Shown here: piece by piece, positions 5,719 to 49,808 of the stretch
Layout: every line of letters starts with the position of its first letter
Position numbering within the stretch: position 1 is the first letter of the stretch
Source of the DNA: Acuticoccus mangrovi
GTDB taxonomy: Bacteria > Pseudomonadota > Alphaproteobacteria > Rhizobiales > Amorphaceae
DNA length: 64,000 nucleotides
Direction of reading: 5' to 3'
Assembly (NCBI RefSeq): GCF_016411865.1
Contig: NZ_JAEKJA010000011.1
Span: 124,001-188,000, forward strand
The notes under the pieces: generated by a model
What the model saw: only the letters and a program-made list of their open reading frames with translations
What the model was told of the DNA's origin: nothing
The model's database searches: none
Made by a program: the position numbers and the translations under genes

Positions 5719-6621
5719 ATGAGAATCGTTGACGACTTCTCCGAAGGGCCGGCCTTCGAGATCCTCGAACCGACCGCACCGGCCGTCCCCTTCGTCTTCA
5801 ACGCTCCTCATAGCGGCACCACCTACCCGCGCGATTTGCTGCAACGCACAAAATTAGACCGCCTCACGCTGCGTCGATCGGAGGACACGTTCGTCGACGA
5901 ATTGTTCGACGGCGTGGTGAGGAAGGGCGCGCCGCTGATGCGGGCCCACTTCCCCCGCGTCTATCTCGACCTCAACCGCGAGGACAACGAGCTCGATCCG
6001 GCGATGTTCAGCGGCCCTCTCAAGGCGCCCGTCAACGCCGATTCGGCACGGGTTGCCGGGGGTTTGGGGGTAATCGCCCGGATCGTCGGCGAGCGCCAGG
6101 ACATCTATGCGAGCCTGTTGCCGCCCGCCGAGGCGGAGCGCCGCCTCGACACCTACTACCGCCCCTACCACCGCGCCCTGGCAAGCCGGATCGACGCGAC
6201 GGTGAACGCGTTCGGCACCTGCGTCCTCGTCGACTGCCACTCGATGCCCTCCGGCGCCGTCAAGTTCCTCGACGAGAAGGCCACCGCCCGGCCCGACATC
6301 ATCCTCGGCGACCGTTTCGGCACCAGCTGCTCGCCGCTTCTCACCGACGAACTCTCCCGCCTGCTGCGCCGTCGCGGCTTCGTGGTCGGCCGCAACCGGC
6401 CCTACGCGGGCGGCTTCATCACCGAGAAATACGGCACCCCGCCGCGCGTTCACGCCATCCAGATGGAGATCAACCGCGCGCTCTACATGAACGAAGCGAC
6501 CTTTGCGCGGTCCGACGGCTTCATCGATCTCCAGGAGGCGCTCGACGAGGTGTGCGCCGAACTCATCCAGTGGTTCGCTGCCGTCCACCTCGACACCGGC
6601 TGGTCCATGGCGGCCGAATAA
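5719..6621 (+). CDS. N-formylglutamate amidohydrolase family protein (HutG-like)
   Basis: A 300-residue protein of the N-formylglutamate amidohydrolase family (PF05013). It shows the metal-binding opening FNAPHSGTTYP near residue 35, a VDCHSMPSG motif near 175, and GGFITEKYG and HAIQMEINR further on. HutG enzymes release glutamate from N-formylglutamate in histidine breakdown, but no other hut gene is visible here, so the substrate is inferred only from family. Its TAA stop overlaps the U-tract of the small-RNA terminator on the opposite strand. This gene order, amidohydrolase / sRNA / IMPase family, is known for the suhB/MmgR RNA in rhizobia. Confidence 0.85.
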   Translation: MRIVDDFSEGPAFEILEPTAPAVPFVFNAPHSGTTYPRDLLQRTKLDRLTLRRSEDTFVDELFDGVVRKGAPLMRAHFPRVYLDLNREDNELDPAMFSGPLKAPVNADSARVAGGLGVIARIVGERQDIYASLLPPAEAERRLDTYYRPYHRALASRIDATVNAFGTCVLVDCHSMPSGAVKFLDEKATARPDIILGDRFGTSCSPLLTDELSRLLRRRGFVVGRNRPYAGGFITEKYGTPPRVHAIQMEINRALYMNEATFARSDGFIDLQEALDEVCAELIQWFAAVHLDTGWSMAAE

Positions 6622-6709
6622 AAAAAAGGCCGCTCCGAAGAGCGGCCTGAAGTCTAGGGAGGAAACGCCCAAGGAGGGCAGCGGGACGACCAACGTCGTC
6701 CTGCGCTGC
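6620..6709 (-). ncRNA. mmgR: suhB / MmgR-type (alpha-r8) trans-acting small RNA
   Basis: Read on the minus strand, a stem (6-base outer part 6709-6704 / 6683-6678, 7-base inner part 6701-6695 / 6690-6684, GUUG loop) is followed by a single-stranded pyrimidine-rich stretch. That stretch carries CCCUCCUU (6678-6671) and CCUCCCU (6662-6656), both able to pair with Shine-Dalgarno sites. A terminator hairpin with eight U then ends it. This architecture, and the position between an N-formylglutamate amidohydrolase-like gene and an inositol-monophosphatase-family gene, match the suhB motif, known in Sinorhizobium as the Hfq-bound sRNA MmgR, which limits polyhydroxybutyrate storage. The exact 5' end is inferred from the promoter spacing. 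Confidence 0.82.
6628..6647 (-). terminator. Intrinsic terminator of the suhB/MmgR-type sRNA
   Basis: An 8-base perfect stem with a four-base loop (TTCG on the minus strand), followed in the minus direction by an eight-base U-tract at 6627-6620. On the plus strand the hairpin lacks a U-tract, so it serves the sRNA rather than the HutG-like gene. Confidence 0.88.
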
Positions 6710-6711
6710 AA

Positions 6712-6740
6712 CAAATGAGGCCGCGGCGCACAATCGTCAA
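6712..6740 (-). promoter_or_regulatory. Probable promoter of the sRNA
   Basis: On the minus strand TTGACG at 6740-6735 and CATTTG at 6717-6712 are separated by 17 bases, a good alphaproteobacterial -35 with a plausible -10. This spacing predicts transcription starting near 6706, at the first stem. Confidence 0.5.
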
Positions 6741-6905: not shown

Positions 6906-7718
6906 ATGCCTCCCATGCGTATGATCAAAGACGACTTTTCGCTGCTCGACCGGCTCGCGGAGGCCTCCGCGGAAGCCATTTTGCCGCACTTCCGACGCCT
7001 CTCCGGCGTCGAGAACAAGGCTGACGACGGCTTCGATCCGGTCACCCAGGCCGACAAGGCGGCCGAGGCGGCGCTCCGCGCGATCCTCGCCAGCGAGCGG
7101 CCCGACGACGGCATCCTCGGCGAGGAATTCCAGAACCACGCCGGCAGCAGCGGCCGTACCTGGATCATCGATCCCATCGACGGCACCCGCGGGTTCATGA
7201 TCGGCTTGCCGGTGTGGGGCGTCCTCGTCGCCCTCGCGGACGCATCGGGCCCCGTCCTCGGCATGATGAGCCAGCCCTATGTGGGCGAGCGCTTCCTCGC
7301 CTCCCCCGACGGCGCCTTCCACGTCGATCGCGCGGGCCGTCGGACGCCGCTCGCGACACGCCCGTGCGCGAGCCTCGACGCGGCAATCCTCACCACCACG
7401 AGCCCGGACGGCTTCACCCCCGAGGTGATCCCCCGCTTCGCCGCCCTCGCCCGCCGCTGCCGCATGGTGCGCTACGGCACCGACTGCTACGCCTATGCGC
7501 TGCTTGCCGCAGGCCACGTGGACGTGGTGGTCGAGATGGGGCTGAAGCCGTTCGATATCGCCCCCTTCGTGCCCATCGTGGAGGCGGCCGGCGGGGCGAT
7601 CACCGATTTCGCGGGCGAGCGCATCGGCCCGACGCTGCCCCATACCTTCAACGGCGAGGCGGTGGCGGTGGGCGACGCCTCCCTGCTTCCGGCCGTGCTC
7701 GAGGTGCTGAACGGCTGA
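6906..7718 (+). CDS. hisN: Histidinol-phosphatase, inositol-monophosphatase fold
   Basis: A 270-residue metal-dependent phosphatase. IMPase-family motifs are ILGEEF near residue 80, WIIDPIDGTRGF near 97 and KPFDIAPFVPIVEAAGG near 215. The LKPFD form and the GTRGF motif favour the HisN histidinol-phosphatase branch over true SuhB, giving the penultimate step of histidine synthesis. The ATG at 6906 is used; in-frame ATGs at 6915 and 6921 are possible and none has a clear ribosome-binding site. A long-loop GC hairpin at 7723-7752 follows the stop but has no U-tract. The gene next to it is a convergent LysR regulator. Confidence 0.8.
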   Translation: MPPMRMIKDDFSLLDRLAEASAEAILPHFRRLSGVENKADDGFDPVTQADKAAEAALRAILASERPDDGILGEEFQNHAGSSGRTWIIDPIDGTRGFMIGLPVWGVLVALADASGPVLGMMSQPYVGERFLASPDGAFHVDRAGRRTPLATRPCASLDAAILTTTSPDGFTPEVIPRFAALARRCRMVRYGTDCYAYALLAAGHVDVVVEMGLKPFDIAPFVPIVEAAGGAITDFAGERIGPTLPHTFNGEAVAVGDASLLPAVLEVLNG

Positions 7719-18890: not shown

Positions 18891-19412
18891 TCAGTGTTCG
18901 GAGAGGTCGGCGGCGACGACAGGCCGTAAGGTGTCGACGAAGACTCGCAGGGTGAGGACGGCAAGGCCGATCGGGACCCAGATCCACGACCACCCGACGG
19001 GCCAGTCGATGATGCCCATCGTGTATTCCTGGTTGGCGAAGGCGGTGTAGGTCTTTTCCGCCGACAGCCAGCACAGCACCGCGAGATAAGGCAGGGCGAT
19101 GATGTTGCCGATGCGGAACAGGAGGTGCTGGACCTGCGGCGGCAAGGTGGCGAGGAGGAGCGCGATGCGGATGCGCCCGCCCGCGCGGTAGCCCCACGGC
19201 AGCGCCAGAGCGATGCCGGCGACCATCAGATAGCTCTCCGTCAGCGTGAACTGGAAGGTCAGCGGCGCGGAGAAGAGATGACGCGACACCGCATCGGTGG
19301 TGACGAGCACCATCGTACCCGCGAGAACGGCTCCCGCGATGACGGCGAGGAGGTTCTCGACGGCGCGCAAGGCGCCGTCGACCGGGGCAATGAAGCCGGT
19401 GGTTTCGCTCAT
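18891..19412 (-). CDS. dctQ: TRAP transporter small permease (DctQ)
   Basis: A 173-residue protein with four hydrophobic segments (about 20-42, 55-75, 95-115, 135-155) and the DctQ features VTTDAVSRHLF and PWGYRAGGRIRIALL. Start at ATG 19412 is chosen because it overlaps the dctP stop in an ATGA and removes an arginine-rich shadow extension. It bridges the binding protein and the large permease. Confidence 0.9.
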   Translation of the reverse strand: MSETTGFIAPVDGALRAVENLLAVIAGAVLAGTMVLVTTDAVSRHLFSAPLTFQFTLTESYLMVAGIALALPWGYRAGGRIRIALLLATLPPQVQHLLFRIGNIIALPYLAVLCWLSAEKTYTAFANQEYTMGIIDWPVGWSWIWVPIGLAVLTLRVFVDTLRPVVAADLSEH

Positions 19413-20437
19413 GCGCCGAGAGCCGCCGTGTACGTCTCGAGCGCCTTGTCGCCGGGCAGTCCGCGTTCGGTCAGGCGATCCGCCCACTCCTGCTGCACCG
19501 ACTTCATCTTCTCGTTGATCAGCGCCAGCTGATCGTCAGGGAAGTTGTATACGTTCATGCCGATGTCCATGAACTTCTTGGCGAGCGTCTCCTCGGAGGT
19601 CTTCATCACGTCGGTGATGTTGCCCTCCGTCCAGACGCCGGCCTCGAGCATCGCATCCTGGATGTCCTTGGGCAGCGAATCCCACTTGGACTGGTTGATG
19701 CACATGACGTTGGAGAAGTTGCCGAACGAGCCGTTGCGGCTCGCCGCCTTGCACAGCTCCGCGATGCCGTAGCCCTCGATGGTGAGGTAGGACGAGATCG
19801 TCGCGTTGACGGTGCCGCGCTGCATGGCGACGTAGATGTCGCCGGCGGCGACGTCGACCGGCGAGCCGCCGAGCGCCTGGATCGCGAGGTTCGTCGAGCC
19901 GCCCGCGGTGCGGATCACCTTGCCCTTGAAGCCGTCGAGCGTCGTCACCGCCTCGTCGGTCGCCACGTACTGGTAGGGCGGGAAGGCGAGGCTCCAGATC
20001 GGGACGAGGTTGTTCTTCTTGTACTCCTGGGCGAACATTTCGTCCTTGATCACCGCACCATAGGCGCTGATCACCTCGCCGGCGGAGCTGCCGAGGCCGG
20101 GGAGCATGGTCACGCCGTTGAGCGGCATCTGGTCGGAGGCGTAGCCGACGGGAATCGGCGCGGCGTCGGCGAGACCGCCGGAGATCGCGTCGAGCAGCCC
20201 CCTCAGCGGCGCGAGCTGGCCGGCCGGGAAGTACTTGTAGCTGACGGCGCCGTCGGTGAGCTCGGTGAGCTTCTTCATCCACGGCTCGACGCCGGCTGCG
20301 GAGATGACGTGCTTCTGCGGGCTGCCGCTGATGACGGTGAGCTGCACCGCGGAGGCGCCGCGCACGATGGCCGGCATCGCGAGTAGAGCGGTGCCCGCCA
20401 TCGTGGATTTGAGGAGCGTGCGTCGTGTCGGATTCAT
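19409..20437 (-). CDS. dctP: TRAP transporter substrate-binding protein (DctP)
   Basis: A 342-residue periplasmic solute-binding protein. The N-terminus MNPTRRTLLKSTMAGTALL has a twin-arginine export pattern, with cleavage probably after the ASA near residue 30. The mature part has a solute-binding fold and the FKGKVIRTAGG segment near 175, placed where TRAP binding proteins carry the Arg that holds a carboxylate. The second ATG (20437) is preferred over that at 20446 because a gggagg ribosome-binding site is nine bases before it and abuts the first. The ligand is not identifiable; a hydroxy or oxo acid is inferred from the operon. Confidence 0.88.
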   Translation of the reverse strand: MNPTRRTLLKSTMAGTALLAMPAIVRGASAVQLTVISGSPQKHVISAAGVEPWMKKLTELTDGAVSYKYFPAGQLAPLRGLLDAISGGLADAAPIPVGYASDQMPLNGVTMLPGLGSSAGEVISAYGAVIKDEMFAQEYKKNNLVPIWSLAFPPYQYVATDEAVTTLDGFKGKVIRTAGGSTNLAIQALGGSPVDVAAGDIYVAMQRGTVNATISSYLTIEGYGIAELCKAASRNGSFGNFSNVMCINQSKWDSLPKDIQDAMLEAGVWTEGNITDVMKTSEETLAKKFMDIGMNVYNFPDDQLALINEKMKSVQQEWADRLTERGLPGDKALETYTAALGA

Positions 20438-20482
20438 GGGTTTCATCCTCCCTGATTTTCGGTTTTCGAGCGGACTGGTGGG

Positions 20483-48565: not shown

Positions 48566-48637
48566 CCACCGCCGACAGGCGTAGTGCCGGCGGTGGGACA
48601 CCCCTCCCCAACGAGGGGCGCCTATCTGAGAGGATAG
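48566..48637 (+). ncRNA. serC-type leader RNA
   Basis: Just before serC three stems occur in order: 9 base pairs at 48566-48574 / 48588-48596, 6 pairs at 48601-48606 / 48613-48618, and 5 pairs at 48622-48626 / 48633-48637. The last encloses part of the gagagga ribosome-binding site. Position and form fit the serC motif described upstream of serC-serA in alphaproteobacteria; its ligand is not known. The motif identity is from position and shape, not from alignment. Confidence 0.6.
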
Positions 48638-48641
48638 TTAC

Positions 48642-49808
48642 ATGACGACTGTTGCGATGCCTGGCCGTCGGCCGGGCAATCCCTGTTTTTCGTCCGGACC
48701 GTGCGCCAAGCGCCCCGGGTGGACCCCCGAAGCGCTGGCGGACGCCGCGCTCGGCCGCTCCCACCGCTCCAAGATCGGCAAAGCCAAGCTGAAGGTCGTG
48801 ATCGACAGCACGCGCGCGCTGCTCGGCGTGCCGTCCGACTATCGCATCGGCATCGTGCCGGCGTCGGACACCGGCGCCGTCGAGATGGCGCTGTGGTCGA
48901 TGCTGGGCGCCCGCCCGACGACACTGCTCGCCTGGGAATCCTTCGGCGAGGGCTGGGTCACCGATGTGGTGAAGCAGCTGAAGCTCGACGCCACCGTGCT
49001 CAAGGCGGACTACGGCCGGCTTCCCGACCTCACCAAGATCGACTTCACCAACGACGTCGTCTTCACCTGGAACGGCACCACCTCCGGCGTGCGCGTGCCG
49101 AACGGCGACTTCATCCCCGCCGACCGCGAGGGGCTGACCATCTGCGACGCCACCTCCGCCGCCTTCGCCCAGAAGCTGCCCTTCGACAAGCTCGACGTGG
49201 TGACCTTCTCCTGGCAGAAGGCGCTCGGCGGCGAGGCGGCGCACGGCATCCTCATCCTGTCGCCACGCGCCGTGGAGCGGCTCGAGACCTACACCCCGGC
49301 CTGGCCGCTACCGAAGATCTTCCGCATGACGAAGGGCGGCAAGCTCAACGAGGGCATCTTCAAGGGCGAGACGATCAACACCCCCTCGATGCTCGCCGTC
49401 GAGGACTGCCTCGATGCGCTCGCCTGGGCGGAAAGCCTGCCGGAGACGCTCGCCGAGCGGTCCGACCGCAACCTCGCCGTCCTCGCCGACTGGGTGGCGA
49501 AGACGCCGTGGGTCGACTTCCTCGCCGAGGATCCGGCGACGCGCTCCAACACCTCGGTGTGTCTCAAGGTGGTGGACCCGCGCGTGACGGGGGCCTCGAA
49601 GGACGAGCAGGCCGCCTTCTCCAAGGCGCTCGCCACGCGCCTCGAGGCGGAGGACGCGGCCTACGACATCGCGGCCTATCGCGATGCCCCTCCGGGCTTG
49701 CGGATCTGGGCCGGCGGCACGGTGGAGTCCGCCGATCTCGCCGTGCTGACCGAATGGCTCGACTGGGCCTTCGCCGTCACGCCGAAGCCGCAAGCCGCCG
49801 CGGCCTAA
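48642..49808 (+). CDS. serC: SerC, phosphoserine aminotransferase
   Basis: A 388-residue class-V PLP enzyme of the alphaproteobacterial SerC type: [15 protein letters not shown] near 10, [10 protein letters not shown] near 40, the PLP Lys in [15 protein letters not shown] near 192. It makes 3-phosphoserine from 3-phosphohydroxypyruvate and glutamate. It is first in serC-serA, with the product of SerA as its substrate. Start ATG 48642 lies behind gagagga, part of which is folded in the leader. Confidence 0.95.

Follow-up and report, generated by a model that had tools for sequence, protein, structure and literature searches.

The closest described relatives of the RNA studied here are MmgR of S. 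meliloti (SmelC689, RF00519) and SisA, its alpha-r8 sibling at the FGase locus of Caulobacter crescentus. According to a review, MmgR has three stem-loops (PMC7143759), and a conserved dyad lies between the -35 and -10 elements of mmgR, as another review describes (PMC8401924). PhaR (AniA) was shown by EMSA to bind the S. meliloti mmgR promoter, which it represses via a palindrome in the spacer (PMC12542648); the site reads CAATTGTGCACCGCAGCATTA (Table 3 of that paper). No direct target of MmgR is known, and direct pairing with phasin mRNAs has been shown in no species (PMC7143759, PMC12559287). SisA represses several mRNAs through the core UUUCCUCCCU, and in Caulobacter CrfA acts as its sponge (PMC12559287).

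An Rfam covariance search was run on the window, which is the whole 64-kb stretch of DNA analysed here. Positions 6686-6612 on the minus strand matched RF00519 (suhB = MmgR, alpha-r8) with 77.8 bits over model positions 1-77 of 77 (E 2.2e-14), the gathering score of the family being 41 bits. An earlier note on this DNA had named a suhB/MmgR-type RNA here, and the score, full-length and above rather than below the threshold, confirms that identity. The interval 6620-6740 given in that note comprises promoter and RNA together, while the RNA alone is predicted at about 6704-6620 minus. This is the one RF00519 copy in its own genome; the RNA genuinely belongs to a known family, is present once and is found at the usual place of that family. 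SisA differs in this respect, as the Caulobacter copies number four, their promoters are unrelated and the CrfA sponge is present, whereas here one copy carries PhaR-type boxes. An alpha-r8 copy above the cut-off was found in 31 of 41 near relatives and, order-wide, in 121 of 149 genomes. Genomes in other families of that order (G035, G054, G113, G156 and others) carry as many as seven copies, sometimes in tandem. The window also holds a serC leader RNA (RF00517, 72.4 bits) at 48591-48642 on the plus strand, directly 5' of an ORF starting at 48642. The features of the locus are collected in Table 1.

Table 1. Features of the predicted MmgR/alpha-r8 locus, with positions in the window.
Feature	Position	Strand	Basis or remark
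FGase (N-formylglutamate amidohydrolase family) gene, convergent	5719-6621	+	PF05013, 247 bits
Predicted MmgR/alpha-r8 sRNA, 85 nt	6620-6704	-	RF00519 match, fold, accessibility
Rho-independent terminator (predicted)	6620-6648	-	9-bp stem 6648-6627, then U-tract
Seed core UUUCCUCCCU (CU-rich motif 2)	6656-6665	-	Single-stranded (predicted), downstream of the weak SL2 hairpin
Middle stem-loop SL2, UGCCCUCCUUGGGCG	6666-6680	-	5-bp hairpin with CU-rich motif 1
5' stem-loop SL1	6681-6704	-	Outside the RF00519 model; 5'-most bases coincide with the right half of PhaR-type box 2
PhaR-type box 2, ATTTGTTGCAGCGCAGGACGA	6696-6716		Over -10 and start site; 13.17 bits
-10 element CATTTG (putative)	6712-6717	-	17-nt spacer; weak match to E. 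coli consensus
PhaR-type box 1, CGATTGTGCGCCGCGGCCTCA	6716-6736		In -35/-10 spacer; 5.35 bits (weak)
-35 element TTGACG (putative)	6735-6740	-	Sequence; TTGA at fixed distance from box 1 in relatives
Inositol-phosphatase-family gene, divergent	6906-7718	+	PF00459, 159.6 bits; best NCBIfam match HisN

The fold of 6712-6612 had a z-score of -4.17, and none of 200 shuffles was equally stable. Based on the position of the -10 element and the conserved 5' hairpin we placed the start of the RNA at about 6704, with the end in the U-tract. At 85 nt, the predicted length of the RNA exceeds the 77-78 nt of MmgR. The predicted transcript is made up of a 5' hairpin (SL1), a short middle hairpin (SL2) and a terminator, in line with the stem and terminator read from the letters earlier. 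SL1 was kept as a hairpin across 58 copies, each folded on its own, with a mean z-score of -4.0 and as many as six pair types at a single position of the stem; these pair-type counts lean towards pairing because they were taken from single-sequence folds, whereas the z-scores are free of this bias. The sequences were folded singly since RNAalifold on an unanchored alignment missed SL1, owing to differing loop lengths. The hairpin is not new to the family, as MmgR has already been described with three stem-loops (PMC7143759).

Two anti-Shine-Dalgarno motifs had been pointed out, and both are present. The first, CCUCCU at 6677-6672, lies partly in the SL2 loop, and CCTCC was found in 69 of 115 located copies. 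The second is the seed core, for which 94% of unpaired state was predicted within the 85-nt transcript. The RNA therefore resembles MmgR in family score, three stem-loops, seed core and terminator, and it shares with SisA the 10-mer seed, the FGase linkage and the terminator (PMC12559287). A CU-rich single-stranded seed directed against the ribosome sites of transporter genes is likewise described for the rhizobial AbcR1 and AbcR2 (PMC8844928); these differ in family and promoter, and the resemblance is one of mode only.

The flanking genes agree with the MmgR neighbourhood that had been recognised earlier, with the FGase gene convergent and a HisN/SuhB-type phosphatase gene divergent, as is usual for the family and as with MmgR itself. 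The label "HutG-like" for the first gene holds as far as the FGase family (PF05013) is concerned, but the HutG equivalog cut-off was not reached. The "SuhB" gene likewise stayed below the cut-off of the family that gives it its name; its best score was for HisN (TIGR02067), with 273.4 bits just under the cut-off of 275.15. Among 229 located copies, which come from fetched loci including some picked by the exact seed pattern and in which a few genera are over-represented, the FGase gene had the same place and orientation in 161. Both neighbours were found in 136 of these copies and at least one in 166, and the orientation was constant.

The RNA and the FGase gene meet tail to tail as had been claimed, the complement of the U-tract (A8, 6620-6627) overlapping the FGase stop codon TAA at 6619-6621. 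This overlap, together with the widely conserved adjacency of FGase, would fit an element that works chiefly in cis and regulates or terminates the convergent FGase mRNA by way of its terminator and the antisense overlap. We regard this as extremely unlikely, since the overlap is confined to a few same-genus genomes, the genes lying further apart elsewhere, some paralogous copies are situated away from FGase, and conservation falls on the promoter boxes, the hairpins and the seed and not on the overlap.

Upstream of the RNA, the promoter TTGACG-17 nt-CATTTG can be recognised by eye, as in the earlier note, and its geometry recurs in relatives, where CATTTG aligns with CATATT-type hexamers; a strict E. 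coli sigma-70 scan left it unscored. PhaR-type sites were scored with a 21-bp matrix trained on 17 EMSA-positive S. meliloti PhaR sites, with the mmgR site left out. Box 1 is located in the -35/-10 spacer, the same place as the S. meliloti mmgR site, to which it is identical at 16 of 21 positions. The centre of box 2 lies 20 bp downstream of that of box 1, and both boxes contain the YGCRNYGCR core. The bare 9-mer is uninformative in this GC-rich DNA (86 matches against 130 expected), whereas matrix and spacing are informative: boxes 1 and 2 form the sole box pair 18-23 bp apart within the window. One site was reported for S. meliloti mmgR (PMC12542648), and the second box over the start site is a promoter feature that the cited MmgR and PhaR papers do not describe.

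NtrC activates mmgR in S. meliloti. Here, simple consensus patterns gave no match to an NtrC or sigma-54 site in the 210 bases up to 6905. At 5834-5854, within the FGase coding sequence near its start, a PhaR-type box was also observed that is very strong (25.5 bits, ATTTGCTGCAACGCACAAAAT); it is weaker (17.1) in the same-genus locus L003 and was found in none of the other same-genus loci checked.

The putative double box of the promoter is conserved across relatives. A PhaR-type box of at least 6 bits was present in 77% of 221 alpha-r8 promoters compared to 9% of dinucleotide shuffles, and a class-level sample had a box in 21 of 27 located copies. Two boxes were found in 54 of 88 boxed copies, the spacing was 19-22 bp in 49 of 57 box pairs, and in 39 copies box 1 starts 10 nt after a -35 TTGA/TTGC. 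As a positive control, all 30 phasin upstream regions of relatives had a box of at least 16 bits, and the main phasin gene of the own genome has a PhaR box of 26.2 bits. In L017 and L030 two alpha-r8 copies situated a few hundred bases apart differ in the presence of a PhaR-type box.

The boxes were also found to go together with PhaR. Counted on one locus set tied to genomes, 77 of the 86 genomes with PhaR had a box of at least 8 bits, against 0 of 5 without it (Fisher p 4e-5). In these five complete genomes the alpha-r8 core is kept, with best box scores of -3.4 to -1.2. They belong to two families and three of them have only sub-threshold alpha-r8 matches, so that the loss stands for 2-3 independent events at most, which is suggestive and not proof. 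G034, which is 67% complete and has a box and no phaR match, was set aside as incomplete. Weak boxes despite PhaR were seen in G072 (4.5) and G125 (5.5), whose family is shared with one PhaR-less genus. The RNA itself was missing from 12 of 20 PhaR-less genomes compared to 7 of 129 PhaR-bearing ones (p 3e-8, uncorrected for kinship).

Because box 2 and the beginning of the 5' hairpin share bases, part of this box is constrained by the RNA, and the boxes might thus be no more than a side effect of promoter composition and of the 5' stem that is transcribed. This is very unlikely in our judgement: box 1 lies outside the transcript, which takes in no more than the right half of box 2, the shuffles reached 9% against the 77% of real promoters, and the PhaR-less genomes keep seed and terminator yet have no box. 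The PhaR-type boxes support a link of the RNA to PHB control, as far as can be judged from sequence and conservation.

The host genome has phaR, two phasin genes and two true PhaC genes, the latter on contigs C65 and C9. The gene at 1173-2327 on the minus strand, put forward earlier as "PhaC-like", did not hold up as a PhaC: it scored 127 bits with TIGR01836 against a cut-off of 365, PhaC_N was unmatched, and it stayed below all PhaC cut-offs. It belongs to the PhaC/PhaZ group of alpha/beta hydrolases and matches PHB_depo_C and DUF3141.

Pairing of the seed was compared against a sample of 638 gene starts, taken from the window and from 120 loci in other genomes. In S. meliloti, mutation of mmgR leads to over-accumulation of PHB as well as of PhaP1/PhaP2 (PMC8401924), and PhaR control as such ties the RNA to PHB; the RNA could therefore bind phasin or PHA synthase mRNAs and in this way limit storage directly, an idea first put forward for S. 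meliloti and taken up in the earlier note. The pairing results make this unlikely. The 30 phasin starts of relatives paired no better than background (p 0.97), so phasins were rejected as targets, and the two own phasin starts, at the 51st and 92nd percentiles of the 638, showed no preferential pairing with the seed. The ribosome-binding region of the PhaC-like gene, which had been offered as a possible target, paired poorly (-11.0 kcal/mol, 92nd percentile) and was discarded, and the top-ranked start of the C65 PhaC was at the 45th percentile of seed pairing. The lack of any demonstrated phasin pairing in any species (PMC12559287, PMC7143759) also counts against direct binding. A PHB-limiting role of the RNA, as brought up in the earlier note, would be one carried over from S. 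meliloti.

The own genome has three exact matches to the anti-core AGGGAGGAAAC. One is the opposite strand of the sRNA gene itself, another forms the ribosome site of a receptor gene of the DctP (TRAP transporter) type at G000:C23:214672, and the third lies antisense to a gene on its leader side. Neither of the two non-self matches is an obvious CrfA-like sponge. At the DctP ribosome site the match to the RNA extends to 14 bp without mismatch (AGGGAGGAAACGCC), directly before the ATG, and the predicted pairing energy of -29.6 kcal/mol was the best of the 638 starts. The 14-mer is not kept in DctP orthologs, several of which have a GGGAGGA-type site. The genome has 46 DctP genes, and their starts paired slightly better than 107 other starts of the same genome (means -17.6 and -15.9 kcal/mol, p 0.009; p 0.017 after matching ribosome-site strength), an enrichment that is small, partly reflects strong ribosome sites and was obtained with start codons called by a simple rule. 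The DctP receptor gene is thus the best predicted target, as a hypothesis and a lead.

Two further stretches were observed. The DctP gene of the window, at 19409-20446 on the minus strand, has the leader CAGGGAGGATGAAACCC. At G000:C1:613585-613595 (L292 ~1501-1511), on the plus strand, a seed-like CGTTTCCTCCCT follows a T-run and precedes a gene start; it lies outside any called alpha-r8 copy, and its minus strand is the exact anti-core.

These pairing data would also fit an RNA that mainly restrains nutrient uptake and not PHB, with DctP mRNAs as principal targets, in the way AbcR and SisA act on other transporters. At gene starts of the genome, the 11-nt anti-core is matched on the sense strand by this DctP ribosome site alone, and the top-ranked energy and the many DctP genes point the same way. 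We consider this possible though doubtful, as the 14-mer is unconserved in orthologs and the enrichment is as slight and as dependent on ribosome-site strength and start calling as stated above.

Taken together, we favour, with a probability of about 0.85, a single trans-acting MmgR/alpha-r8 sRNA that is switched by PhaR via the two boxes and represses its targets through the core. When PHB is absent, free PhaR would occupy both boxes, in the -35/-10 spacer and over the start site, and block transcription. During PHB synthesis PhaR would be drawn off the DNA onto the granules, so that the promoter is released and the RNA accumulates. The exposed 10-nt core UUUCCUCCCU would then pair with ribosome-binding sites of the GGGAGGAAA type and lower translation of the targets, presumably assisted by Hfq. 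The PhaR half of this mechanism draws on the S. meliloti experiments and on the conservation found here, and the pairing at ribosome sites on Caulobacter SisA; PhaR binding and repression, Hfq dependence and repression by base pairing are thus expected from these two species. The DctP receptor gene is the best candidate among the predicted targets. Several points were counted against the favoured explanation: the weak box 1, the few independent events behind the PhaR-less genomes, the weak boxes of G072 and G125, the lack of an NtrC or sigma-54 consensus match in the bases read, and the phasin starts without preferential pairing. In addition, PhaR would repress an RNA that lowers phasins, which implies a feedback that may have either net sign. 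For the most part the mechanism is probably that of MmgR/SisA by inheritance, and the PhaR operator is extended.

A broader reading, which we hold to be speculative and rather unlikely, is that the alpha-r8 RNA is the standard granule-sensor arm of PhaR throughout the class. The tandem operator would then have its boxes two DNA turns apart with the right half reused at the very start of the 5' hairpin, and in TRAP-rich lineages such as that of the host the output would be uptake (DctP) and not phasins. If this were true, a full store would throttle import.

The locus is ordinary as an RNA, and its interest, which is moderate, lies in the generality of the PhaR link. Among alpha-r8 RNAs, MmgR alone has been tied to PHB storage, and PhaR was previously shown to control it in one species. 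With boxes at most of the sampled alpha-r8 promoters of the order, and at most of those located in the class, and with their absence where PhaR is absent, the PhaR link becomes a testable general rule. The TRAP receptor gene with its 14-bp match would in addition provide a concrete candidate target for a family in which MmgR has no known direct one.
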